From the NCBI GenBank assembly GCA_030039755.1, contig JASHUY010000233.1, positions 1-64,000 on the forward strand: a stretch of 64,000 bases of DNA, given 5' to 3'. The position numbers and the translations under genes were made by a program. A model generated the notes under the pieces. The model worked only from the letters and a program-made list of their open reading frames with translations, did not search any database and had not been told where the DNA came from. Shown here one piece after another: positions 1-24,272 of this stretch; position 1 is the stretch's first letter, and the number at the start of each line of letters is the position of its first letter. This stretch comes from Acidimicrobiales bacterium. GTDB lineage: Bacteria > Actinomycetota > Acidimicrobiia > Acidimicrobiales > RAAP-2.

Positions 1-789
1 GACCGCTACCGCGCCCTGCTCGAGACCGACGAGGACCGCGCCGCGTTCGATCAGATGCTCGGCCTCTGCCGGACGACGTTCCCGTACATCGAGGAGCACA
101 AGTTCTTCTGCGAGCACTGGTTCACGACCCGGTTCTTCGCCAAGATGCGCGAGTTCGGACAGCTCCTCGTGGACTTCGGCGTGCTCGACGAGGCCGAGGA
201 CCTGTTCCAGCTCCAGCACTACGAGATCGACCAGCAGCTCGCGAACGTGATGCTCGCCTGGTCTGCAGGATCGGCACCTGTCGGCACCGACGCCGTGAAG
301 GCGCTCGTCGCCGAGCGCAAGGCGATGCTCGAGGTGCTCGCCACCTGGCCCGCGCCGCCCGCGCTCGGCCCGCTCCCCGAGGCGCTCAACGACCCGGCCG
401 TCAAGCTCCTGTGGGGGATCAATTCCAAGACGGTCCGCATGTGGGCGGAGGCAGCCGACCCGAGCTCGGCCCGGATCGAAGGGCTCGCCGCCTCGCCGGG
501 CATCGCCGAAGGGGTGGCCCGCGTGCTCATGAGCGTGAACGAGATCGACCACATCGAAAGTGGCGAGATCCTCGTCTGCCCCGTCACCTCGCCGAGTTGG
601 GGCCCGGTCTTCGGAAAGATCAAGGCGGCCGTGTCGGACAGCGGCGGCATGATGTCGCACGCGGCGATCGTGGCGCGCGAGTACGGGATGCCCGCCGTCG
701 TCGGCACCGGGACCGCGACCCGGCGGATCAAGACCGGCGACCGCCTGCGGGTGGACGGCGATCAAGGAGTCGTGGTTATCCTGTCCTGA
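1..789 (+). CDS. PEP-synthase-like phosphotransferase, central/swivel part (5'-truncated by window)
   Basis: The reading frame is open from base 1, so the N-terminus lies outside the window; 262 residues are visible. The last ~95 residues are a PEP-utiliser mobile (swivel) domain. The motif GGMMSHAAIVAREYG carries the histidine that is phosphorylated in PEP synthase, PPDK and phenylphosphate synthase. The upstream part is helical and has no pyruvate-binding signature. The ATP-grasp half of such an enzyme is encoded separately by the next gene, which resembles the subunit split of phenylphosphate synthase. The inferred role is ATP-dependent phosphoryl transfer to an organic acceptor. Acceptor identity is unknown, and a rifampicin-phosphotransferase-like or PEP synthase role cannot be excluded. 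The gene sits 58 bp upstream of its partner and heads a biotin-carboxylase operon. Confidence 0.85.
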   Translation, partial: DRYRALLETDEDRAAFDQMLGLCRTTFPYIEEHKFFCEHWFTTRFFAKMREFGQLLVDFGVLDEAEDLFQLQHYEIDQQLANVMLAWSAGSAPVGTDAVKALVAERKAMLEVLATWPAPPALGPLPEALNDPAVKLLWGINSKTVRMWAEAADPSSARIEGLAASPGIAEGVARVLMSVNEIDHIESGEILVCPVTSPSWGPVFGKIKAAVSDSGGMMSHAAIVAREYGMPAVVGTGTATRRIKTGDRLRVDGDQGVVVILS

Positions 790-847
790 CCGCGCGAGAG
801 AGGGTCGCGACAATGGCGGGATCGGCCGCGAGGAGCGTGTTGCTGTC

Positions 848-1903
848 ATGAGCGACCTCGTCGTCCGGATCACAGAGGTGGGGCGGCCCGACGTCCTGCT
901 CGTCGGCGGCAAGGGCGCGAGCCTCGGCGAGATGGTTCGCCTCGGCCTCCCCGTACCTCCGGGTTACGTCGTGACGACGCAGGCGTTCCGCCAGGCGCTC
1001 CTCGAGCTCGACCCGGACGCACGGCGGTCGACGACGATCTCTGCCCTCGAGCCCGACGACCGCAAGGCGGTCGAGGCGGCGACCGCTCCGCTGCGCGAGG
1101 CGATCACGAACTGCCCCCTCCCGGCCGCGCTGGAAGACGCGGTCCTCCGTCACCACATGGACCTCCGGAGCGGTCGCGGCTCGGTTCCGGTCGCCGTGCG
1201 GTCGAGCGCCACCGGGGAGGATGCACTGGACGCGAGCTTTGCGGGGCTCCAGGACACGTTCCTTTGGGTCCACGACGAAGCCACGCTCCTCAGCCGGCTC
1301 CGAACGTGCTGGGCGAGCCTGTACTCGGTGGAGTCCGTCTCCTACCGCCTCCAGCGCGGCATCGCGGAGGAGGACGCAGCGATGGCCGTCGTCGTCCAGC
1401 AGATGGTCGAGGCGCGAAGCGCCGGGGTGATGTTCACCCGCTCGCCGAGCACCGGCGACCGCTCGGTCGTCGCCATCGAGTCGTCCTGGGGCCTCGGATC
1501 GGCCGTCGTCGGTGGCGAGGTCACCCCGGACTCGTTCACGGTGAGCAAGGTCACCGGGGAGGTGCTCCGCCGGCAGGTGTCCGAGAAGCTCCGACGCCAT
1601 GTCCCGGCCGGTCCCGGCGGCGGAGTGCTCGACGAGGAAGTCCCCGTCGAGCTCCGGTCGGTGGCGAGCGTCACCGACGAGGAGCTCGCCCGACTGGTCG
1701 CGCTCGCCCAGGCGGTCGAGGGACACTACGGCATCGCTCAGGACGTCGAGTGGGCGGTCGCGGTCGACCACCCCTCCGGCGACGGTCTCTTCCTGCTCCA
1801 GAGCCGGCCCGAAACCGCCTGGTCGAGGCGCGCGACCGAGCCGATCGCCGCGCCGAAGGCCCGGGCCTTCGACCACGTGATCGACGCGATGGGCCGCGCG
1901 TGA
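848..1903 (+). CDS. PEP/pyruvate-binding ATP-grasp subunit of a PEP-synthase-like enzyme
   Basis: This 351-residue protein corresponds to the N-terminal nucleotide-binding domain of PEP synthase. Visible signatures are GGKGASLGEM near the N-terminus, VAVRSSATGEDALDASFAG around residues 117-135, and the terminal FLLQSRPE of the ATP-grasp fold. It lacks the swivel histidine domain, which the preceding gene supplies, so the two probably form one enzyme that uses ATP to phosphorylate the swivel histidine. The ATG at 848 follows a purine-rich stretch and no better upstream start is seen. The downstream biotin carrier starts 28 bp after its stop. In phenylphosphate synthase the same two halves occur as separate subunits; this is the nearest architecture known to me, not proof of substrate. 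Confidence 0.88.
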   Translation: MSDLVVRITEVGRPDVLLVGGKGASLGEMVRLGLPVPPGYVVTTQAFRQALLELDPDARRSTTISALEPDDRKAVEAATAPLREAITNCPLPAALEDAVLRHHMDLRSGRGSVPVAVRSSATGEDALDASFAGLQDTFLWVHDEATLLSRLRTCWASLYSVESVSYRLQRGIAEEDAAMAVVVQQMVEARSAGVMFTRSPSTGDRSVVAIESSWGLGSAVVGGEVTPDSFTVSKVTGEVLRRQVSEKLRRHVPAGPGGGVLDEEVPVELRSVASVTDEELARLVALAQAVEGHYGIAQDVEWAVAVDHPSGDGLFLLQSRPETAWSRRATEPIAAPKARAFDHVIDAMGRA

Positions 1904-1931
1904 CCCAGGCCGTCCGGGCGACGGGCCGCGC

Positions 1932-2453
1932 GTGAACCTTTCGCCTGAAGACGTCCAGGACATCTTGAAGGTCCTCGACTCGACCGACTACGACGAGCTG
2001 CACCTCGAGACGGACCGCTTCGTGTTGCGGCTCCGTCGAGCTCCAGGTGGCTGGACCGAAGAGCGCGAAGCGCTGGGTGAGGCGCGCCTCGTCCCCGGTC
2101 AGGCTGTCGAGGAGGGCGTGCCAGCCGAGGAGCCGAACCGGGCCCGGGACTCCACCTCGGCCGGAGAAGACGCAGACCCGCAGCGCCAGGGGATGCACGC
2201 GGTCCGCGCCCCGCTCCCGGGCGTGCTGTACCGGGCCCCGAAGCCCGGCGAGCCGCCCTTCGTCGAGGTCGGCGACCATGTCGAAGCCGACACGGTCGTG
2301 GCGATCCTCGAGACGATGAAGCTCATGAACCCCGTCCGCGCCGGAGCCGCCGGCACCGTCTCCCACTTCGCCGTCACCAACAGCGAGCCGGCCGGGCAAG
2401 GCGACGTCCTCTTGTGGCTGCTGCCGGACGCTCCGACCCCTGGCGAGCCTTGA
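1932..2453 (+). CDS. accB: Biotin carboxyl carrier protein
   Basis: This 173-residue protein has an AccB-like N-terminus (LSPEDVQDILKVLDST), a charged Pro/Glu-rich linker (about residues 45-95) and a C-terminal biotinyl domain. The biotinylation motif ETMKLMN supplies the lysine that accepts biotin and carries CO2 between the biotin carboxylase and carboxyltransferase sites. The start is GTG at 1932. Its stop overlaps the TTG start of the biotin carboxylase gene, so translation is probably coupled. A stand-alone carrier with separate carboxylase and transferase genes is the bacterial multi-subunit arrangement. Its neighbours (PEP-synthase-like genes and a pyruvate-carboxylase-type transferase) argue against simple acetyl-CoA carboxylase function. 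Confidence 0.93.
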   Translation: MNLSPEDVQDILKVLDSTDYDELHLETDRFVLRLRRAPGGWTEEREALGEARLVPGQAVEEGVPAEEPNRARDSTSAGEDADPQRQGMHAVRAPLPGVLYRAPKPGEPPFVEVGDHVEADTVVAILETMKLMNPVRAGAAGTVSHFAVTNSEPAGQGDVLLWLLPDAPTPGEP

Positions 2454-3868
2454 GGATCCGACGCCTCCTCGTCGCCAACCGAGGCGAGATCGCCCTCCGG
2501 ATCCTGGGCACCTGCGAGCGGCTCGGCATCGAGACGGTCCTCGCCGCCTCCGACGCGGACCTCGACTCTCCCGCCGCGCGCCGGGCGGACTCGGTCGTCC
2601 GCCTCGGGCCCGCACTCCCTGCTCACAGCTACCTCTCGGTCGGCGCCGTCCTGCGCGCGGCGCTCGCGTCGGGGGCTGGCGCCGTGCACCCCGGATACGG
2701 CTTCCTCTCCGAGAGCCCGGCGCTCGCGGACGCCTGCGCGAGCGCCGGGCTCTCCTTCGTCGGGCCGTCCGCCGAGCACCTGCGCGCCCTCGGCGACAAG
2801 CTGCGTGCCCGTGCCGCCGCCGTCGCCGCGGGCCTCCCCGTCCTTCCCGGCGGTGAGGTCACGAGCGTGGCCGAAGCCGAGTCCCTTCTCGACCGCACCG
2901 GTCTGCCCGTCCTCGTGAAGGCGGTCGGCGGTGGCGGCGGACGCGGGATGCGGCTGGTGGAGCACGCCGGCGAGCTCGCCCGCGCCCTCGAGCTGTCGGT
3001 GGCCGAGGCGCACGCCGCCTTCGGGGACGGCCGCGTCTACCTCGAGCGCTACGTCGCCCCCGGTCGCCACGTCGAGGTCCAGCTCCTCGCCGACGGCGAG
3101 CGCGTGCTGCACGTCGGCGAGCGGGACTGCTCGGTCCAGCGCCGCTACCAGAAGCTGCTGGAAGAGGCCCCCGCGGCGGGGCTGCCCGAGACCCTGCGAC
3201 TGTCGATGCACGCCGCGGCCGTTCGTTTGGGCCGCCATCTCGGCTATCGCGGGCTCGGCACGGTCGAATTCCTCGTCGACGTCGGCCGCGAAGACTTCTT
3301 CTTCCTCGAGGTCAATCCCCGGATCCAAGTCGAGCACCCGGTGACCGAGGCGACCACGCACCTCGACCTCGTCGCCGAGCAGCTCTACGTCGCCGAAGGA
3401 CGTCCGCTGAGGCTCGGCCAAGGGGACGTCGCCTTCGACGGCCACGCCATCGAGTGCCGGGTCAACGCCGAGGATCCCGAGCGTGACTTCGCCCCTTCGC
3501 CCGGCACGGTCACGAGCATGCGGCTGCCCGCCGGCGAGGGCATCCGCGTCGACGCAGGCGCACAGAGCGGCTCGACGGTGCCGCCGTACTACGATTCGCT
3601 CCTCGCCAAGCTCGTCGTCTCGGGCCCCGACCGGTCCGCAGCGATCGCGCGCCTTGCCGGCGCGCTCGACCGTTTCACGGTGGACGGCGTCCCGACCACG
3701 ATCCCGCTCCACCGACGCCTCGTCGCCGACCCGGCGTTCCGCGCCGGTGGCGTCGACACCGGCTGGCTCAGCCGCGTGCTCGCGCCGGGAGCGGGCGGTG
3801 CGCACCAGCCCTCCTTCCCCGGCGCTCCCGGCGCGCTCGAGGAGGCCGAGGTGAGCACCCGTGGCTGA
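2450..3868 (+). CDS. accC: Biotin carboxylase (ATP-grasp)
   Basis: About 472 residues, the usual length for a stand-alone biotin carboxylase. It catalyses ATP- and bicarbonate-dependent carboxylation of carrier-bound biotin. Domains in order: N-terminal fold with LLVANRGEIALRI, ATP-grasp with the glycine loop KAVGGGGGRGM and the catalytic FLEVNPRIQVEHPVTE, then the C-terminal domain containing ECRVNAEDP. I chose the TTG at 2450 because it overlaps the upstream stop (TTGA) and gives the normal N-terminus; a GTG at 2414 would add 12 residues. It overlaps the following carboxyltransferase gene by 8 bases. A methylcrotonyl-, propionyl- or pyruvate-carboxylase A-subunit assignment is equally compatible with the sequence alone. 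Confidence 0.93.
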   Translation: MRIRRLLVANRGEIALRILGTCERLGIETVLAASDADLDSPAARRADSVVRLGPALPAHSYLSVGAVLRAALASGAGAVHPGYGFLSESPALADACASAGLSFVGPSAEHLRALGDKLRARAAAVAAGLPVLPGGEVTSVAEAESLLDRTGLPVLVKAVGGGGGRGMRLVEHAGELARALELSVAEAHAAFGDGRVYLERYVAPGRHVEVQLLADGERVLHVGERDCSVQRRYQKLLEEAPAAGLPETLRLSMHAAAVRLGRHLGYRGLGTVEFLVDVGREDFFFLEVNPRIQVEHPVTEATTHLDLVAEQLYVAEGRPLRLGQGDVAFDGHAIECRVNAEDPERDFAPSPGTVTSMRLPAGEGIRVDAGAQSGSTVPPYYDSLLAKLVVSGPDRSAAIARLAGALDRFTVDGVPTTIPLHRRLVADPAFRAGGVDTGWLSRVLAPGAGGAHQPSFPGAPGALEEAEVSTRG

Positions 3869-5381
3869 GGTGCGTCTCGTCGACGTGTCGATCCGGGACG
3901 GCAACCAGTGCATGTGGAGCGCGACCGGGCTGCGGACTCCGCAGATCCTCCAGGCGGCGCCGCTGCTCGAGCGCGTCGGCTTCCACGCGCTCGACTACAT
4001 CTCGAGCACGTTCATGGGGATCGCCGCCCGGACGCACCGGGAGGACCCGTGGGAGCGGATCCGCCTCACCCGCGCCGCGGCGCCGACGACGCACCTGCAG
4101 TTCATCGGGACCGGGTTCCGATTCATCTCCTGGGAAGAAGCGAGCCCCGAGCTCATGCAGCTCATCTACGACCGCCTCGTCGTCGCGGGCATCTCCCGGT
4201 TCATCGTCCTCGACCCGATGCACGACGTCGAGGCGATGCGCAAGTCCGCCGGCATGGTGAAGCGTGCGGGCGCACCGGAAGTGATGGGGGCGCTGACGTT
4301 CACCCTCAGCCCCGTCCACGACGACGCCTTCTACGCCGGCATCGCACGGGTGATCGCCGAGGACCCGAACTTCGACCGCGCCTACATCAAGGACCCTACG
4401 GGCATGCTCGACCTCGAGCGCGCCCGCTCCCTCGTCCCGGCGGTCAAGGCGGCGCTCGGCCGCAAGCCGCTCGAGCTCCACTCGCACTGCACGATCGGGC
4501 TGTCGCCCATCACCTACCCGCGGGCGCCGGACCTCGGCGTCGACGTCCTGCACGTGGCGCCCGGACCGCTTTCCAACGGGTCGTCGCTGCCGGACGCCCA
4601 GCGCGTCGTGGCGAACCTGCGGGAGCTCGGTCACACCGTCGACATCGACGACCGCGCCCTCGACCTCGTCGCCCGCTACTTCCACGCCCTCGCCCGGGCG
4701 GAGGGGCTGCCGGTCGGGGCTCCGCAGGATTACGACGCGGCGTTCCTGCGTCACCAGGTCGCCGGTGGCGTCCTCACGACGACGCGCCGCCAGCTGCACG
4801 AGGTCGGGCTGGAGGACCGCTTCGACGAGGTGCTCGAGGAAGTGCCCCGCGTCCGCGCGGAGCTCGGGTACCCGATCATGGTGACGCCGTTCCCCCAGAT
4901 GGTCTGCACCCAGGCGCTCTACAACGTCTTGAGCCCCGAGCGTTACGAGCACGTCCCCGACGAGGTCGTCCGCTACGTGCTCGCCCGCTTCGGCCGTCCG
5001 ACCTCACCGGTCGACGCGGAGGTGAAGGACAAGATCCTCTCGAGCCCGCGCGCGAAGGAGCTCGAGGCCGAGCCCCCACCGCCGACCGTCGCCGAGCTGC
5101 GCCGGCGGTTCCCCCGGGTCGGCGACGAGGAGCTCATCCTGCGGGCCACCATGCCGGGCAACCAGGTGGACGCGATGAAGGCTGCAGGTCCCGCCCGCCG
5201 CCATTACAACCCTGCGCTGCGCCCCGTCCTCGGCCTGCTCGAAGAGCTGAGCCGCCGGCCGGCGCTCGCAGAGCTGGTCGTCGAGCGCCCCGGTACGCGG
5301 CTTCTCCTCCGCCGCGACGCGCGCGACCGTCGGGACGCCGACGACACCCACCGCGAGCACAAGGAGGCACATGCGGTCTGA
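3861..5381 (+). CDS. Pyruvate carboxylase/oxaloacetate decarboxylase-like carboxyltransferase, diverged
   Basis: 506 residues. The N-terminal TIM-barrel belongs to the HMGL/PYC_OADA carboxyltransferase family; the C-terminal ~130 residues match the PYC_OADA conserved domain but carry no biotinyl motif. Landmarks are RDGNQCMWSATGLRT (usually RDAHQSLLATRMRT), AYIKDPTG with the lysine expected to be carboxylated, HSHCTIG (usually HTHDTSG) and MVTPFPQMVCTQA. The metal-binding His-x-His remains, but the active-site Asp and Thr-Ser neighbourhood is changed, so the CO2 acceptor is probably not pyruvate. The start is GTG at 3861, inside the end of the biotin carboxylase gene. It is expected to take CO2 from the biotin carrier encoded upstream. 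Which acceptor it carboxylates cannot be told from sequence. Confidence 0.85.
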   Translation: MAEVRLVDVSIRDGNQCMWSATGLRTPQILQAAPLLERVGFHALDYISSTFMGIAARTHREDPWERIRLTRAAAPTTHLQFIGTGFRFISWEEASPELMQLIYDRLVVAGISRFIVLDPMHDVEAMRKSAGMVKRAGAPEVMGALTFTLSPVHDDAFYAGIARVIAEDPNFDRAYIKDPTGMLDLERARSLVPAVKAALGRKPLELHSHCTIGLSPITYPRAPDLGVDVLHVAPGPLSNGSSLPDAQRVVANLRELGHTVDIDDRALDLVARYFHALARAEGLPVGAPQDYDAAFLRHQVAGGVLTTTRRQLHEVGLEDRFDEVLEEVPRVRAELGYPIMVTPFPQMVCTQALYNVLSPERYEHVPDEVVRYVLARFGRPTSPVDAEVKDKILSSPRAKELEAEPPPPTVAELRRRFPRVGDEELILRATMPGNQVDAMKAAGPARRHYNPALRPVLGLLEELSRRPALAELVVERPGTRLLLRRDARDRRDADDTHREHKEAHAV

Positions 5382-6261
5382 CCCCGCCCCCGACGACGCG
5401 CCCGGCGCAGCTCGGGCGCACGACCACGCTGCCGTCGCGCACCTGCGCGAGCTGGGCGCGTTCCTGCTCGATCTCGACGGCACCCTCGTCCTCGGCGACC
5501 GCAGGAACCACGGGCTCGTGCCGCTGCCGGGCGCGGTCGAGCTCGTCGACGCCCTCCACGAGGACGGCGTCGCCGTCGCGGTCCTGACGAACGGCACCGC
5601 GCGCCCGCCGGCTGCCCAGGCCGCCGTATTGCGCGGGATCGGCTTCGATCTTGCCGACGACGCGGTGCTGACGCCGGCCTCGGCCGCGGCAGAGGTGTGC
5701 GTGCGGGCCGGGCACACGCGGGTGATGGTGCTCGGAGGGGAAGGCGTCTTCGCCCCCCTCCTGGAGGCAGGCATCGAGGTGCTCGCGCCGGAGGGGCGGC
5801 CGAAGGTCGACGCGGTGTTCGTCGGTTGGTTCCGAGAATTCGGGATCGACCATCTCGAGGCCGCCGCCAACGCGGTCTCCGACGGCGCCGCGTTCTACAG
5901 CGCGAGCCAGTCGCTGTACTTCGCCACCGCCGACGGCCGGGCGCTCGGCACCTCGCGGGCCATCTGCGCGGTCGTGAAAGACCTGACCGGGGTCCGGCCC
6001 ACCGTCGTGGGCAAGCCCTCGCCCCATGCGTTCCGCACCGCGGTCCACCGCCTCGGCGTGCGGCCGCGCGAGCTCGCGGTCGTCGGGGACGATCCCGAGC
6101 TCGAGGTCCCGATGGCGCTTCGCGGCGGCGCGTTCGCGATCGCGGTCAACTCGGGCACCGGGCACGCGGGTTCCTTCGACCACCTGGAGGCCCGACGGCG
6201 TCCCCACCTCATCGTGAACGGCGTCGACGAGCTGCTGCAGCTCTACCGTTCCGCCGGCTGA
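5371..6261 (+). CDS. HAD-superfamily IIA phosphatase (NagD-like)
   Basis: 296 residues with HAD motif I DLDGTLV near residue 32, motif II as VLTNGT, motif III lysine in VGKPSPHAF and motif IV in VVGDDPELEV, the pattern of NagD and 4-nitrophenylphosphatase-type enzymes. The cap domain (about residues 90-200) is of the C2 type. It starts with ATG inside the end of the carboxyltransferase gene (11-base overlap) and is the last gene of the operon. A phosphatase beside a PEP-synthase-like kinase and a carboxylase suggests removal of phosphate from a phosphorylated intermediate or of a dead-end product. That role is inferred from context only. Confidence 0.85.
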   Translation: MRSDPAPDDAPGAARAHDHAAVAHLRELGAFLLDLDGTLVLGDRRNHGLVPLPGAVELVDALHEDGVAVAVLTNGTARPPAAQAAVLRGIGFDLADDAVLTPASAAAEVCVRAGHTRVMVLGGEGVFAPLLEAGIEVLAPEGRPKVDAVFVGWFREFGIDHLEAAANAVSDGAAFYSASQSLYFATADGRALGTSRAICAVVKDLTGVRPTVVGKPSPHAFRTAVHRLGVRPRELAVVGDDPELEVPMALRGGAFAIAVNSGTGHAGSFDHLEARRRPHLIVNGVDELLQLYRSAG

Positions 6262-8780: not shown

Positions 8781-9920
8781 CTACGCGGGCTCCCCGGGCG
8801 GTCGACGCTTGGGTCGCACCACCGAGTGGCCGGGGAAGCGGGGCGGGAAGCCGAGTGGCTGCGCGACGGCGGACACGCCCGCGTTCGGCGCACCGGCGAC
8901 GACCACGAGGACGTCGTCCGGCGACCGCAGCACCCCGACCCGTCGATCCCAACCCGGGTCGTCCTCGGCGCTGCCGGAGGGCTGCGCCCAGCCGTGCATG
9001 GACCCGGTCGAGACCGGTGCGTTGCTCGGGGTCGGCCTGACCCCGTCCTTGCCGGTGCGCCGGAGGTCGCCCAGCCTCCGCACGGCGTTCTCGACGAGGT
9101 ACTCCTTCACGTCGCGCTTGGTCATCCCCTGCGTCGCGAGCAACTGGGCGTGCTCGGGGCCGATGATCACGGCGATGCGCTTCTCGGCCCGCAAGATCGT
9201 GCCGGTCCGGGCGATCGAGTCGCCGATGTCGTTCAGGATGTGGTGGGCATCGGCCGTCTGCCGGTTGTCGATGAAGTCGATGCCGCGGGTGTGCAGCGCC
9301 GAGACCGCGCTCTCGTCGGAGGAACCGCCGAGCTCCACGTGGAGCGGCTCCCAGGGGCTCTCCTCCTCGTTCTCGGCGATGCACAGGCTGTACTTGCCGG
9401 GATTGCCCTGCGTCGACTGGTCGAGCTCGTGCGGGCTCACCCCGAAGACGTCGATGATGACGAGCCGCATCGTCCGGCCGACGGTCGCGTTCGCGCGGAA
9501 GCCCGGGCCGAAGACGTTGCCTCTCGAGTTGAAGCCGAGCTCGGTGCGCACCGGGCCGTTGACGATCAGCAGCGGCCCGCCTCCGGTGGTGCTCTGCCAT
9601 GCCCCCGCCTCCGGCCACCCCTCGTCGATGACCGCCTCGAAGGCGGCGAGGACGACGGGAAGGTACTCGGGTCGGCAACCCGCCATCGCCGCGCAGACGG
9701 CGATCTGGCGCACCGTCGCGACCCGTCGGAATTGGCTGATGTTGGCCAGGATCTCGTCCGGGTCCCGGTCGGTCGCAGAGAGGAACCGCTCGACGAGCTC
9801 CGGCGTCGGCGGCACGACGGGCAGGCCGTCGGTCCAACCCTGCTCGTAGCAGTGCTCGATCGCCTGGAGGAGGGGGTCGAGGTCGACCGGTGGTTCGTCC
9901 CGCGCCTCGTCGACGGCCAT
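8781..9920 (-). CDS. Partner protein of UGSC selenoprotein, function unknown
   Basis: 379 residues without recognisable catalytic motifs. It aligns closely by eye along its length with the 356-residue product at 20343-21413. Shared blocks include AIEHCYxQGWxDGLP, AAMAGCxPEY, GFNSxG, FGPGFRxNATV and ENEEESPWEPL. Two cysteines, in EHCY and MAGC, are shared and could be functional. No signal peptide or membrane segment is visible. Its ATG overlaps the stop of the selenoprotein gene (TGATG), and the same junction recurs at the second locus. This indicates translational coupling and probably a stable two-protein unit. The C-terminal ~60 residues diverge and are Pro/Arg-rich. I do not recognise a named family. 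Confidence 0.88.
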   Translation of the reverse strand: MAVDEARDEPPVDLDPLLQAIEHCYEQGWTDGLPVVPPTPELVERFLSATDRDPDEILANISQFRRVATVRQIAVCAAMAGCRPEYLPVVLAAFEAVIDEGWPEAGAWQSTTGGGPLLIVNGPVRTELGFNSRGNVFGPGFRANATVGRTMRLVIIDVFGVSPHELDQSTQGNPGKYSLCIAENEEESPWEPLHVELGGSSDESAVSALHTRGIDFIDNRQTADAHHILNDIGDSIARTGTILRAEKRIAVIIGPEHAQLLATQGMTKRDVKEYLVENAVRRLGDLRRTGKDGVRPTPSNAPVSTGSMHGWAQPSGSAEDDPGWDRRVGVLRSPDDVLVVVAGAPNAGVSAVAQPLGFPPRFPGHSVVRPKRRPPGEPA

Positions 9921-10474
9921 CAGCTGTGCCGCCCGGGCTCGCCGCCCGCGCCGGGGCCGCGCAGGATCTCGAGGACCTGGGGAGCGGCCAACTCCGCGTG
10001 GGCGCGCAGCCCGTCGGCGTCGAGGCTGCTCACCGGGTGCGGGACGATCGCGTAGCGGTACCCCGGGGCCCCGTGCAGGGCTGCCATGGCGTTCGCGCTC
10101 GCTTGGAGCGCATCGGTGCAGATCGCCGCGGACGGCACGCCGCGACGCTCGAGAAAGATGACGTCGGCCACACTGGCCGCGCTACAGCTCCCTCAATCGC
10201 CTATCGCCTCGATGACGAGGTCGCACTCCGCGGCGATCTGGTCGAGCACCTCGTCGGACGCCGGCAGCGTCCCGGGAACGCTGTACCGGTTGACGATCGC
10301 GGGCTCGAGCTCGTCCCGCAGGAAGGCCTCCACCTCCTCGAGCAGCGCGGCGGCGTTGGCCTTGGTGTTCTCCATGAGGCCGAGACGCAACCCGCGCAGT
10401 TCGGCCGGACGGGCTGCCAGGGTCACGGCGAGGCCGGTCGGCTGCTGAGTGGGATCGACGAGCACGAACTTCAT
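9920..10474 (-). CDS. UGSC-family selenoprotein (in-frame UGA at 10193-10195 = Sec94)
   Basis: Read with UGA as selenocysteine, the gene encodes 184 residues, the same length as the cysteine paralogue at 19789-20343. The frame continues directly across the stop: IGD-U-GSCSAASVAD here against VGD-C-GSCSAAAVAD there, with matching flanks such as GYRYAIVPHP/GYRYATVEHP. Sec94 and Cys97 form a UGSC redox-type motif. Conventional gene calling would split it into 10193-10474 and 9920-10171. ATG 10474 is preceded by AGGAGG at a suitable distance. A hairpin of 5 bp with loop AGUGU lies 13 nt after UGA, as expected for a bacterial SECIS. The UGSC family is known from metagenomic selenoprotein surveys; its biochemical role is unknown. 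SelA/B/C/D are not in the window and must be encoded elsewhere. Confidence 0.9.
10165..10179 (-). promoter_or_regulatory. SECIS-like hairpin downstream of UGA(Sec)
   Basis: On the minus strand CGGCC-AGUGU-GGCCG forms a perfect 5-bp stem with a 5-nt loop starting 13 nt after the UGA. The loop guanine is 20 nt from the UGA, within the spacing known for bacterial SECIS elements, and lies in the first two loop positions as usual. The cysteine paralogue has a different sequence at the left arm and does not keep this hairpin. Confidence 0.7.
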
Positions 10475-18629: not shown

Positions 18630-19745
18630 ATGAAGACGACCGCCGCAGTCCTTCGGGTCCCGGGCAAGCCTTGGGAGATCACCGAGCTCGACCTCGACGA
18701 GCCGAAACCCCACGAGGTCCTCGTCAGGTTCATGGCGTCGGGGATGTGCCATTCCGACGAGCACATCCGGGAGAGCGGGGGGTCCCACATCCGCATGCCC
18801 CTCGTGGGCGGGCACGAAGGTTCCGGCATCGTCGAGGCGGTGGGCTCGGCGGTGCAGCGGGTGCAGCCGGGCGACCACATCGTGACCTCCTACATCCCTG
18901 CCTGTGGCCACTGTCGCTACTGCTCGACGGGGCGGCAGAACCTGTGCGACCGCGGCCTGTACGCGGGGAAGGGGTGCCTGCAGGACGAGACCTTCCGCTT
19001 CCACCAGGACGGGGAGGATTTCGGGGCTTTCTGCGTCGTCGGCTCCTTCTCCCAGTACTCGGTGGTCTCCGAGTACTCCTGCATCAAGATGGACGACGAC
19101 ATCCCCTTCGAAGTGGCCTGTCTCGTCGGTTGTGGCGCGACCACCGGTTGGGCGTCCGCCGTCTACGCCGCGGACGTGAGGGTCGGCGAGACCGTCGTGA
19201 TCTTCGGCACGGGCGGGGTGGGGATGAACGCCGTCCAGGGGGCGAGGCTCGCCGGCGCGAAGAACGTCATCGCGATCGACCCCGTCCCCTTCAAGCGCGA
19301 GCAGGCGCTGCGCTTCGGGGCGACCCTCGCCTTCGCGGACCCGACAGCGGCGCGAACGAAGATCGTCGAGATCACCCGGGGCCAGCTGGCCGACAAGATC
19401 ATCCTGACGGTCGGCCTCCTCGCCGAGGCGGACGTCTCGAACGCCGTCTCGATGTGCGGCAAGGCAGGCACGGTCGTGATCACCTCGGTCAGCCCGCCCG
19501 ACGAGAAGACCGTGAGCCTGACGGGCAGCCCGCTCGTCGGCTACGTGCGGCGCATCCAGGGCGCCTTGTTCGGGAACGCGAACCCGCTCTACGACATCCC
19601 GAAGATGCTCGGCCTCTACAAGTCCGGCGACATGAAGCTCGAAGAGCTCATCACCCGGCGCTACCCCCTGGAGGAGATCAACGAGGGCTACCAGGACATG
19701 CTGGACGGCAAGAACATCCGTGGCGTGATCGTCCACGAGCATTGA
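18630..19745 (+). CDS. NDMA-dependent (mycofactocin-type) alcohol dehydrogenase, second copy
   Basis: 371 residues, clearly paralogous to the 12142-13269 product. Zinc ligands are in GMCHSDEH and GGHEGSG, the structural cysteine cluster is CGHCRYCSTGRQNLC, the Rossmann motif is GTGGVG and the C-terminus is GKNIRGVIVHEH. ATG 18630 follows AAGGAG at 7 nt; a GTG three bases earlier is less well placed. Family members oxidise primary or secondary alcohols and hand electrons to mycofactocin. It is followed after 43 bp by the CGSC protein gene, so the two are probably co-transcribed. That links this dehydrogenase class physically to the UGSC family. Confidence 0.9.
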   Translation: MKTTAAVLRVPGKPWEITELDLDEPKPHEVLVRFMASGMCHSDEHIRESGGSHIRMPLVGGHEGSGIVEAVGSAVQRVQPGDHIVTSYIPACGHCRYCSTGRQNLCDRGLYAGKGCLQDETFRFHQDGEDFGAFCVVGSFSQYSVVSEYSCIKMDDDIPFEVACLVGCGATTGWASAVYAADVRVGETVVIFGTGGVGMNAVQGARLAGAKNVIAIDPVPFKREQALRFGATLAFADPTAARTKIVEITRGQLADKIILTVGLLAEADVSNAVSMCGKAGTVVITSVSPPDEKTVSLTGSPLVGYVRRIQGALFGNANPLYDIPKMLGLYKSGDMKLEELITRRYPLEEINEGYQDMLDGKNIRGVIVHEH

Positions 19746-19788
19746 AGGACCGCGGGAACTTGACACGACGCGAACCGAGGAGGAGACG

Positions 19789-20343
19789 ATGGGCAGCCTG
19801 ATCATGGACCCGACCGGACAGACGACGCGGGCCGAGGCCGAGATGCGGCTCGCGCGCCGCCCCGAAAGCCTCCGCGGCAGGACCGTGGGTCTGCTCGACA
19901 ACGGCAAGCAGAATGCCGGCCGTTTCGTCGACGAGCTCGGCAAGGTGCTCGCGGAGCGCTACTCGATCGGCGGCGTGGTCCTGCGCAAGAAGCCCGTGGC
20001 GACGGTGGACGCCCCCGCCGAGCTGCTCGACGACCTCCACGACTCTGTCGAGCTCGTGGTCATCGCGGTCGGCGACTGTGGCTCGTGCAGCGCCGCCGCC
20101 GTGGCCGACGGCATCGCCCTGGAGCGGCTCGGCACCCCGACGGCGGTGGTCTGCACGGAGTCCTTCAAGGCGACCGCCGACGCCATGGCCGTGGTGCGCG
20201 GCGCGTCGGGGTACCGCTACGCCACCGTCGAGCACCCGATGGCAGGCCTTCCGGCGGACGAGGTCCGAGCACGCGCCGAAGGTGTCGCCGACGAGGTCGT
20301 GTCGTTGCTGGTCGACGCCGCGGTACGCCGCGGCGCCGCCTGA
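19789..20343 (+). CDS. UGSC-family protein, cysteine form (CGSC)
   Basis: 184 residues, homologous over its whole length to the selenoprotein at 9920-10474. The redox-type motif is GDCGSCSAA with Cys97 (TGT at 20077-20079) exactly at the selenocysteine position and Cys100 conserved. The C-terminal half shares VCTESFKATADAMA and GYRYATVEHP. It is a small cytoplasmic alpha/beta-looking protein without signal or membrane segment. ATG 19789 has GAGGAGGAG upstream. Its stop overlaps the start of the partner gene (TGATG). Function is unknown; sulfur/selenium redox or C-S/C-Se chemistry is an inference from the motif. Confidence 0.88.
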   Translation: MGSLIMDPTGQTTRAEAEMRLARRPESLRGRTVGLLDNGKQNAGRFVDELGKVLAERYSIGGVVLRKKPVATVDAPAELLDDLHDSVELVVIAVGDCGSCSAAAVADGIALERLGTPTAVVCTESFKATADAMAVVRGASGYRYATVEHPMAGLPADEVRARAEGVADEVVSLLVDAAVRRGAA

Positions 20344-21413
20344 TGGGAGAGGCCGCCCCGGCGCTGGATCTCGACCCCGAGGCCGCCCAGGCGGCGATCG
20401 AGCACTGCTACGACCAGGGTTGGTCCGACGGCCTCCCACTGGTCCCGGCCACCCGCGAGCTGGTCGACCGCTTCCTCGCGGAGACCGACCGCCCGCCCGA
20501 CGAGGTGATCGGCAGGATGGATCACCTGGGCCGCGCCTGCACGGTCGAGCTGGCAGCGGTGAACGCCGCGATGGCGGGGTGCCTGCCCGAGTACTTCCCC
20601 GTGGTGCTCGCGGCCTGGGAGGCGGTGATGCGTGACCGGGCCGCCAAGGGAGGCGGTTGGCAGAGCACGAGCGGGCCTGCGCCGATGATCGTCGTGAACG
20701 GCACGGTGCGCGAGGAGCTGGGGTTCAATAGCACCGGGGGGGCGTTCGGACCCGGGTTCCGTCCGAACGCCACGGTGCCCCGGGCGATCGGGCTGATCGT
20801 GCGGAACGCCTTCGGGATCAGACCGCACGAGTTCGACCAGGCGACCCAGGGCCTGCCCGGACGCTTCTCGATCTGCTTCGGGGAAAACGAGGAGGAGAGC
20901 CCCTGGGAACCCCTGTCGGTCGAGATGGGGCTGCCCGAAGGTCAGAGCGCGGTGTCGGCCACGCTGCTCCGGACCTGCGAGTTCGTGGACAACCGCCACA
21001 CCGTCGATCCGGACCAGGTCCTCTTCGACTTCGCCGACACCATCGTGCGGACCGGGTCGCTCATCTTCCGGGACCAGTCCTGCTTCGTCGTCTTCGGCCC
21101 GGAGCACGCGCAGCTCCTGGCCAACGCCGGGTACTCGAAGACGGACGTCAAGGACTGGTTCATCGACCACTGCGTGCGCCGGGAGGCCGACCTGCGACGG
21201 GCCGGCAAGGACGCGGTCGGAGAAGGGGGCCTGGGCGGGCGGGGGCCCAGCGACGGGGAGCGGGTGAGCCCGGATACGCTCACCTCGATCATCCCGACCA
21301 GGGCGCAGATCCCGATTACCGTGACCGGCGCCCGGAACGCCGCGATGTCGCTCGTCTGCAGGGTCTTCGGCACGTGGTCGAACACCTCGTGCCCGATCGA
21401 GCGCCGTCGGTGA
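20343..21413 (+). CDS. Partner protein of UGSC family, function unknown (second copy)
   Basis: 356 residues from ATG 20343, which overlaps the stop of the CGSC gene in the same TGATG arrangement as the minus-strand pair. It is closely similar to the 8781-9920 product, sharing AIEHCYDQGWSDGLPLVP, AAMAGCLPEYFPVVLAAW, GFNSTGGAFGPGFRPNATV and GENEEESPWEPL. The last ~60 residues differ between the copies. No known catalytic motif, signal peptide or membrane helix is visible. Conserved cysteines (EHCY and MAGC) are candidates for contact with the UGSC/CGSC motif. The coupling suggests the two proteins act as a complex. Confidence 0.88.
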   Translation: MGEAAPALDLDPEAAQAAIEHCYDQGWSDGLPLVPATRELVDRFLAETDRPPDEVIGRMDHLGRACTVELAAVNAAMAGCLPEYFPVVLAAWEAVMRDRAAKGGGWQSTSGPAPMIVVNGTVREELGFNSTGGAFGPGFRPNATVPRAIGLIVRNAFGIRPHEFDQATQGLPGRFSICFGENEEESPWEPLSVEMGLPEGQSAVSATLLRTCEFVDNRHTVDPDQVLFDFADTIVRTGSLIFRDQSCFVVFGPEHAQLLANAGYSKTDVKDWFIDHCVRREADLRRAGKDAVGEGGLGGRGPSDGERVSPDTLTSIIPTRAQIPITVTGARNAAMSLVCRVFGTWSNTSCPIERRR

Positions 21414-22835: not shown

Positions 22836-24272
22836 GTGGGGACGACCGTTGGTCGCAGCATGGACAAGATCGTCGCCTCCCCTGCGGAGGCGGTCGCCGA
22901 CGTCGTCGACGGTTCGAGCGTCGCGATCGCGGGCTTCGGGCTCGCGCACCGCTTTCCCTCGAGCCTGATCATGGCGCTCGCCGACCTCGGGTCGAAGGAC
23001 CTGACCGTCTACTGCAACGGCCTCGGTCAGCCTGGACACCCGACGGCCCACCTGCTGGCGGAGAACCATCAGCTGGGCAAGCTCGTCGCCTCTTTCTCCG
23101 CCCGTCCGGGGGTGCGCGAGTCCGAGGCCGAGACCCAGATCACCGCCGGCCAGCTCGAGTTCGAGGTCGTCCCGCAGGGCACCCTGGTCGAACGGATGCG
23201 CGCCGGGGGGGCGGGGCTGGCGGCGATCTACACGCCCACTGCGGTGGGCACCCCGCTCGCCGAGGGCAAGGAGGTCCGCTACTTCGACGGGAAGCCCTAC
23301 GTCCTCGAGCTGGCGATCACCACCGACTTCGCCTTCCTCCGCGGCTACCGCGGCGACCGTCTCGGCAACATCCAGATGCGCGGCGGCTCGCGCAACTTCA
23401 ACGTCAGCTTCGCCAAGGCGGCCCGCGTCGCCATCGCCGAGGTCGAGGAGATCGTCGAGCCCGGCGAGATCCCGCCGGACCTCGTGGACATCCCGGGAGC
23501 GTTCGTGGGCCGCGTCGTCCAGAGCACCTACACGATGGACACGAGGTCGCTGCCGATGCGCCCGAACCGTGCGGCGACCAGCGCGCGGTCCTACAACGAC
23601 AAGCCGGCGCTTGCCCGGAACGAGATCGCGCGGCGTGCCGCGCTGCTGCTCGAGGACCGCACGTACGTGAACCTCGGCGCAGGGCTCCCGAACCTCATCA
23701 CGAACCACCTCGGCGACCGGGAGGTCGTCCTCCACGCCGAGAACGGCATCCTCGACTACGGGTCCTTCGCGGAGGAAGACGACTTCGACCCCGACGTGCA
23801 CGACGCCGGAGGCTGGTTCGTCACGACCCGGCCCGGCACCTCGTTCTTCGAGAGCGTCACCTCCTTCGAGATCGCGCGCTCCGGCCGGCTGTCCGCCGTC
23901 GTGCTCGGCGCCTACCAGGTTGCCGCGAACGGCGACTTCGCCAACTGGGCGACGCCGGAGATGGCCGGGGGCGGGATCGGGGGGGCGATGGACCTCGCGG
24001 TGGGGGCCAAGCGCGTCATCATCACGATGGAGCACTGCGACAGCTCCGGCCGGCCGAAGCTCGTCGAGCGCTGCACCTACCCGATCACCGCGGTCGGGGT
24101 CGTGGACACCGTCGTGACGGACCTCGCCCTCCTGCGGCGCGTCGGGAGCACCTTCCGGCTGGAGGAGGTGGCACGGGGGTTCGGCGTCGACGAGGTGCTC
24201 GCGCTCACCGGCATGCACGTCGAGGTGCCGCCGCAGGTGCGCGTCATGCAGGACGCCTTCGAGTCAACGTGA
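22836..24272 (+). CDS. 3-oxoacid CoA-transferase, fused A and B subunits
   Basis: 478 residues covering both halves of a family I CoA-transferase. The A half has VAIAGFGLAHRFP and a conserved region around IQMRGGSRNFN, and the B half carries the catalytic glutamate in HAENGILDYG. Members such as succinyl-CoA:3-oxoacid CoA-transferase move CoA between an acyl-CoA and an acid such as acetoacetate. GTG 22836 has GGAGGG at 8 nt; ATG 22860 is the alternative. An aldehyde dehydrogenase gene follows after 13 bp. The linker between halves (about residues 225-265) differs from textbook SCOT, so the acid substrate may differ. Confidence 0.88.
   Translation: MGTTVGRSMDKIVASPAEAVADVVDGSSVAIAGFGLAHRFPSSLIMALADLGSKDLTVYCNGLGQPGHPTAHLLAENHQLGKLVASFSARPGVRESEAETQITAGQLEFEVVPQGTLVERMRAGGAGLAAIYTPTAVGTPLAEGKEVRYFDGKPYVLELAITTDFAFLRGYRGDRLGNIQMRGGSRNFNVSFAKAARVAIAEVEEIVEPGEIPPDLVDIPGAFVGRVVQSTYTMDTRSLPMRPNRAATSARSYNDKPALARNEIARRAALLLEDRTYVNLGAGLPNLITNHLGDREVVLHAENGILDYGSFAEEDDFDPDVHDAGGWFVTTRPGTSFFESVTSFEIARSGRLSAVVLGAYQVAANGDFANWATPEMAGGGIGGAMDLAVGAKRVIITMEHCDSSGRPKLVERCTYPITAVGVVDTVVTDLALLRRVGSTFRLEEVARGFGVDEVLALTGMHVEVPPQVRVMQDAFEST

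Follow-up and report, generated by a model that had tools for sequence, protein, structure and literature searches.

By analyzing a 64,000-nucleotide stretch of contig JASHUY010000233.1 from an Acidimicrobiales bacterium (hereafter the window), we found at its left edge, between positions 1 and 6261, six plus-strand genes encoding a two-component dikinase, a three-subunit biotin-dependent carboxylase and a phosphatase. The first (1–789, +) encodes the swivel-histidine and C-terminal part (residues 343–604 of 604) of HpeH1, the substrate-binding subunit of the dikinase (PF00391, E = 1e-25; NF006153, E = 6e-107), and the second (848–1903, +) its ATP-grasp subunit HpeI (PPDK_N, PF01326, E = 2.6e-97), for which a single copy was found in the assembly. 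They are followed by genes for a HpeC-type biotin carboxyl carrier protein (1932–2453, +; PF00364 and TIGR00531-like), a HpeA-type biotin carboxylase subunit (2450–3868, +; PF00289/PF02786/PF02785), a HpeB-type carboxyltransferase subunit (3861–5381, +; PYC_OADA, E = 4e-26; PF02436; pyruvate carboxylase subunit B model, E = 6e-87, PRK09282) and a HpeD-type phosphatase of the haloacid dehalogenase (HAD) IIA family (5371–6261, +; PF13344, TIGR01460). The Pfam and NCBIfam matches confirm the gene content given by the initial annotation, namely a split phosphoenolpyruvate (PEP)-synthase-like enzyme, biotin carrier, biotin carboxylase, transferase and HAD phosphatase. Successive genes are spaced by +58, +28, −4, −8 and −11 nt, so that its description as tightly packed and overlapping holds for the last four genes. 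Active-site motifs are intact in the biotin carboxylase (GGGGRG, NPRIQVEHP and ECRVNAEDP), the carboxyltransferase (RDGNQ, YIKDP and HSH) and the phosphatase (DLDGT), and the biotinylation motif of the carrier, ETMKLM, is the commonest one in its family (43/82).

The window starts at the end of a 70,712-bp contig (C75), and gene 1 is cut by this contig edge rather than truncated. A second contig of 25,069 bp (C69) is identical, in reverse complement, to the 197 bases at window positions 1–197, and joining C69 to C75 gives a gene 1 frame of 604 amino acids with its start codon at window coordinate −1025. Since all three parts of the joined HpeH1 match one ortholog, in the related locus L063, far better (N-terminal part 89%, junction 86% and C-terminal part 90% identity) than its paralog there (67–72%), we consider the join to be in register. 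The C69 overlap answers the objection that gene 1 might belong to an unrelated operon, as the sequence immediately upstream is the remainder of gene 1. Beyond it, C69 carries a second HpeH gene (HpeH2; C69 1476–3317), divergent from the window operon, followed by a dehydrogenase gene of the N,N-dimethyl-4-nitrosoaniline (NDMA)-dependent alcohol dehydrogenase type (TIGR03989). A gene for an acetoacetate-CoA-ligase-type enzyme, HpeE-type (TIGR01217, 748 bits for a cutoff of 521), is a further divergent neighbor. In the relatives L051 and L063, we observed the same divergent order, alcohol dehydrogenase and HpeH2 on one side, HpeH1, HpeI and the carboxylase on the other, each time on a single contig.

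The closest solved structure to the window HpeI is 9GOJ (E = 9.8e-75 in the PDB), which is HpeI of Rhodococcus rhodochrous GD02. Because the PEP synthase structure 9DAE scores nearly as well, this match alone is not discriminating. As a proxy for the characterized GD02 system we used a plasmid cluster of Rhodococcus sp. JS3073, whose HpeI shares 97.3% identity with 9GOJ across the aligned region and whose HpeH has Cys580-His581 numbered as in GD02; identities were measured against JS3073. The window and C69 proteins are 45–46% (HpeH), 43% (HpeI), 50% (biotin carboxylase), 46% (carboxyltransferase), 36% (HpeD) and 42% (HpeE) identical to their JS3073 counterparts. The carboxyltransferase is closer to that of Pseudomonas putida YC-AE1 (65%) and to those of actinomycete relatives (69–89%), and the phosphatase to a Streptomyces cluster protein (57%). 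The kinase HpeHI of GD02 phosphorylates both acetovanillone and 4-hydroxyacetophenone, and these ketones are carboxylated by HpeCBA only in their phosphorylated form; HpeD then takes off the phosphate, and vanillate or 4-hydroxybenzoate is the proposed product of HpeE and HpeF (PMC9618137). The Acv pathway of Sphingobium SYK-6, as cited in PMC13101465, uses the same kind of gene set. Genes of GD02, SYK-6 and A. macra have earlier been introduced into Rhodococcus RHA1.

The genome of the window holds all eight enzyme types of the GD02 hpeHICBADEF cluster: the two-component dikinase, the three-subunit biotin carboxylase, the HAD phosphatase, the acetoacetate-ligase-type CoA ligase and an amidohydrolase-type last enzyme, a HpeF/CouO-type protein (Amidohydro_2) encoded on another contig (C141) and about 55% identical to HpeF of JS3073. 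It differs from GD02 by its sequence divergence (36–55% identity through the JS3073 proxy), by having two HpeH for one HpeI, and by the divergent position of HpeE and the unlinked position of HpeF. We take HpeF/CouO to be an amidohydrolase-type enzyme, in line with the nature of CouO and with the place of such a gene in the hpe clusters of JS3073 and Rhizobium leguminosarum. The HpeF-type hydrolase is present in all six near relatives as well as in the window's own genome.

Together, these data make it very probable that the window genes encode the upper part of a Hpe/Acv-type pathway that takes an aryl methyl ketone of lignin origin (most likely acetovanillone) through vanillate and protocatechuate to central metabolism. 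HpeI would bind ATP and transfer its beta-phosphate onto the swivel histidine in HpeH; HpeH would in turn phosphorylate the phenolic hydroxyl of the ketone. The biotin carboxylase, carrier and carboxyltransferase would then carboxylate the phospho-ketone at its methyl group with CO2, and the HAD phosphatase would strip the phosphate to leave an aryl-beta-keto acid. The HpeE-type ligase would form its CoA thioester, which the HpeF/CouO-type amidohydrolase would cleave into vanillate and acetyl-CoA. The neighboring NDMA/mycofactocin-type dehydrogenase may make the ketone from the corresponding alcohol. The proposal that a kinase activates a substrate other than pyruvate ahead of a biotin carboxylase, with a phosphatase acting afterwards, was right in matching the Hpe/Acv route, and a ketone or phenol was a good guess, the known Hpe substrate being a phenolic ketone. 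The route is not novel, however, the same gene set having been characterized in 2022 in R. rhodochrous GD02 and Sphingobium SYK-6. The chemistry is known in kind, and the new details are its host lineage, a lignin-ketone island and the duplication of a kinase subunit.

The kinase itself fits this picture. Both HpeH copies carry the swivel motif (SDSGGMMSH and SDIGGIMSH; catalytic His562 in HpeH1) that corresponds to T/SxxGGxxxH, a motif in which the histidine is indispensable to HpeH (PMC12167813). The HpeH1 ortholog of L063, as modeled with AlphaFold2 (mean predicted local distance difference test score, pLDDT, 88), aligns over residues 14–604 to rifampin phosphotransferase (RPH; Z 22.7, root-mean-square deviation 3.9, 478 residues), and pyruvate phosphate dikinase (PPDK) and enzyme I align essentially with the swivel domain. 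In this fold search, non-RPH families were listed mainly for that domain, and we do not interpret their absence elsewhere. By both sequence and modeled fold, the swivel domain is the last one of HpeH, and a pyruvate-binding domain is lacking. The term PEP-synthase-like thus needs correction, as the fold is RPH-like and lacks the pyruvate-binding barrel; on this model, HpeH should be read as an RPH-like small-molecule dikinase subunit. An activity with pyruvate only is unlikely, because HpeH lacks the pyruvate-binding domain. The kinase is also, as had been proposed, a homolog of phenylphosphate synthase, with 44–45% identity to PpsA and the same histidine motif, and the characterized two-component kinases of the family (HpeHI, CreHI and PpsAB) phosphorylate phenols (PMC12167813). 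These systems differ in what follows the kinase: a UbiD-type phenylphosphate carboxylase for PpsAB of Azoarcus KH32C, in place of the biotin carboxylase of the window, and P450 and dehydrogenase genes without a biotin carboxylase for the CreHI-like pair of R. oxybenzonivorans.

The genes that would act on vanillate were found on C141. LigM is well above its cutoff (878 bits for 580), and LigA, LigB, LigK and oxalomesaconate tautomerase also exceed theirs; LigC-, LigI- and LigJ-like genes were assigned by position, size and sequence reading, no model match being decisive. LigM would use folate to demethylate vanillate to protocatechuate, the C1 unit being recycled by the products of formate-tetrahydrofolate ligase (FTHFS), FolD and MetF-like genes. 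Protocatechuate would then be converted to pyruvate and oxaloacetate by LigAB, C, I, J, U and K. This fate of vanillate differs from that in GD02 (VanAB and the beta-ketoadipate pathway). It resembles SYK-6, a member of another phylum in which LigM and protocatechuate 4,5-cleavage lie downstream (as outlined in PMC6888825) and whose Acv pathway, which we liken from its published description, likewise has a two-component kinase, a biotin carboxylase and a phosphatase and acts on acetovanillone and acetosyringone. Linkage of the two halves of the route was observed in relatives. In one of them (G398), the lig operon and the hpe cluster share a single 45-kb contig with HpeH2, the alcohol dehydrogenase, the ligase, mycofactocin genes, FTHFS and FolD, and also with HpeF, LigM, a MetF-like gene and a second demethylase of the LigM/DesA type. 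In another (G401, contig C108), HpeF, LigM, HpeI, LigA and a second demethylase occur together, and a Burkholderiales metagenome-assembled genome (L088) has hpe, HpeF and ligKUJIABC in one place. Very few cultured strains are known to use this phosphorylation and subsequent carboxylation of lignin ketones; the route would thereby extend to an uncultured actinomycete lineage, where it is joined to the demethylation of vanillate and the 4,5-cleavage of protocatechuate.

Several observations weigh against this assignment. The kinase is 43–46% identical to the characterized type, no higher than to PpsA. In our tree, which does not include AcvAB of SYK-6, the window's HpeH falls among carboxylase-linked kinases and the GD02-type HpeH outside this clade on a long branch. 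With an identity no higher than that to PpsA and the GD02-type HpeH outside the clade, the substrate cannot be read from the kinase sequence alone. Moreover, the lig genes are on a separate contig in the window's own assembly, their linkage being seen in relatives only, and neither PobA nor an intradiol dioxygenase was found in this 70%-complete genome. A substrate without a methoxy group, 4-hydroxyacetophenone or a close phenolic ketone (e.g. from bisphenol or ethylphenol breakdown) converted to 4-hydroxybenzoate, would follow the same pathway logic. It is a variant that shares part of its probability with the acetovanillone reading, and we regard it as possible but rather unlikely. HpeCBA of GD02 prefers phospho-4-hydroxyacetophenone (PMC9618137), homologous carboxyltransferases are plasmid-borne in P. 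putida YC-AE1 (with pobA nearby), Sphingobium yanoikuyae and Sphingomonas bisphenolicum, and a PobA-like gene, under the curated cutoff, is present in 4 of 6 relatives. The window's own genome, however, combines LigM and the 4,5-cleavage pathway with no detected PobA, and LigM/DesA-type demethylases were present in 6 of the 7 genomes searched.

Our first reading of the upstream alcohol dehydrogenase and ligase was a carboxylation of acetone or 2-propanol, in which the dehydrogenase would form acetone, the kinase its enol phosphate, the biotin enzyme acetoacetate and the ligase acetoacetyl-CoA. It was dropped when the reference HpeE proved to have the same annotation (HpeE of JS3073 also exceeds the TIGR01217 cutoff, with 766 bits for 521) and LigM, lig and HpeF-type genes were found, the latter having no role in acetone use. 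That HpeHI, CreHI and PpsAB all phosphorylate phenols also argues against it, and a literature search for biotin-dependent acetone carboxylases paired with a kinase of the PEP synthase type returned nothing relevant. We now hold it to be very improbable, even though an NDMA-dependent alcohol dehydrogenase and a TIGR01217 enzyme do adjoin the cluster. The initial annotation had suggested acetone-like chemistry from the CoA-transferase at 22836, in which the 3-oxoacid CoA-transferase A and B domains are fused in a single reading frame (22860–24272); this gene lies 16.6 kb away and no close homolog of it was found beside the HpeHI-type clusters screened, and the suggestion is not supported. Slighter still is the chance that a split PEP synthase and a conventional pyruvate or acetyl-CoA carboxylase of central metabolism cluster here fortuitously, as the database names (PEP synthase, pyruvate carboxylase subunit B, AccC) would have it. 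HpeH lacks the pyruvate-binding domain of PEP synthase and RPH spans its whole model, and neither HpeH nor HpeI reaches the PEP synthase cutoff (TIGR01418). The curated equivalog cutoffs for pyruvate carboxylase and AccC are likewise unmet (PRK12999, 527 vs 965 bits; TIGR00514, 519 vs 626; PRK09282, 293 vs 402), and the carboxyltransferase is 47–89% identical to members of these clusters vs 30–35% to other carboxyltransferases across the phylum. Since HpeF-type, LigM and 4,5-cleavage genes are present or linked and PobA was not found in the 70%-complete genome, acetovanillone or a similar methoxylated ketone is favored over both 4-hydroxyacetophenone and acetone.

HpeH1 and HpeH2 are paralogs with 70% identity whose duplication maps to the base of the window's lineage (tree support 100/100). 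Both copies have been kept in three genomes at 86–89% identity, with a dN/dS of about 0.16 (NG86), which indicates that both evolve under purifying selection. The operon copy HpeH1 carries 13 clade-fixed changes at otherwise nearly invariant positions, HpeH2 none. Four of them (185, 193, 196 and 204) fall on one long predicted helix (168–210), near the invariant residues H189, E191, Y200 and F203; positions 47 and 80 are also among the HpeH1-specific ones. We claim no domain-wise enrichment, as the 11 of 13 changes that fall in the substrate-binding part are close to the number expected from the length of that part. These changes may reflect a shift in ketone preference. We tentatively propose, as an idea that has a reasonable chance of being correct yet falls short of probable, that one HpeI serves both HpeH1 and HpeH2 as a modular dikinase, with HpeH1 retuned (e.g. 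to bulkier syringyl ketones) and HpeH2 keeping the ancestral specificity, and that uncultured Acidimicrobiales-like actinomycetes carry the whole route with Sphingobium-style folate-dependent demethylation and 4,5-cleavage. The doubled subunit offers a direct test case for substrate choice by these dikinases.

To see how widely the genes co-occur, we surveyed 80 named loci that are the best matches to the window's own carboxyltransferase, so that the counts are not unbiased frequencies. All six genes are present in 39 of them, and HpeH, HpeI, biotin carboxylase and carboxyltransferase in 46, a recurrence of the six-gene set far beyond chance. Cluster members include Streptomyces, Blastococcus, Geodermatophilus and Prauserella; the linkage of HpeHI with biotin carboxylase and carboxyltransferase, which the literature had termed uncommon, thus extends to Streptomyces and Geodermatophilaceae. 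In 18 of the 80 loci (e.g. L041 10883–12130), a single Tm-1-like ATP-binding protein, probably MarK of the Novosphingobium aromaticivorans type, occupies the kinase position, and both kinase types were never found together (0/80). These putative MarK-type clusters have the same order of carrier, biotin carboxylase, carboxyltransferase and phosphatase but a single-component kinase in place of HpeHI. Labels such as PEP synthase, pyruvate carboxylase and acetoacetate-CoA ligase hide the pathway in many genomes, and the present assignments correct them.

Related genes were also seen on plasmids. Plasmid pRlBT01c of R. leguminosarum carries a complete hpe-type cluster in the order H-I-C-BC-CT-D-E-F, BC and CT standing for biotin carboxylase and carboxyltransferase (L163 9980–20330), annotated as acetyl-CoA carboxylase and acetoacetate-CoA ligase. 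On a Thermomicrobium roseum plasmid (L165 7983–12493), a HpeH-HpeI pair lies beside a divergent gene for biotin carboxylase, no gene in the vicinity being annotated as a carboxyltransferase, and HpeH homologs with 36–38% identity occur on haloarchaeal plasmids of Natribaculum, Natrinema and Haladaptatus (H27–H30).

Further genes surround the cluster. Beside the NDMA-dependent alcohol dehydrogenase are the mycofactocin genes mftR, mftB/C (in one frame), mftD and mftF (L007, that is C69, 7796–11438, and L009 331–1791). C69 also has a quinone-oxidoreductase-like gene beyond the ligase, a CO-dehydrogenase-like large subunit, FTHFS, two FolD-like genes assigned by reading their sequence, and a Baeyer-Villiger-monooxygenase-like gene. 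Elsewhere in the window, we noticed a gene pair present twice. For its larger protein, neither copy matched an NCBIfam model, and the one copy tested against Pfam gave no match there. The two copies (8781–10474, −, and 18630–21413, +) lie near ATP-binding cassette (ABC)-type transporter-like genes and NDMA-dependent alcohol dehydrogenases (12175 and 18630).

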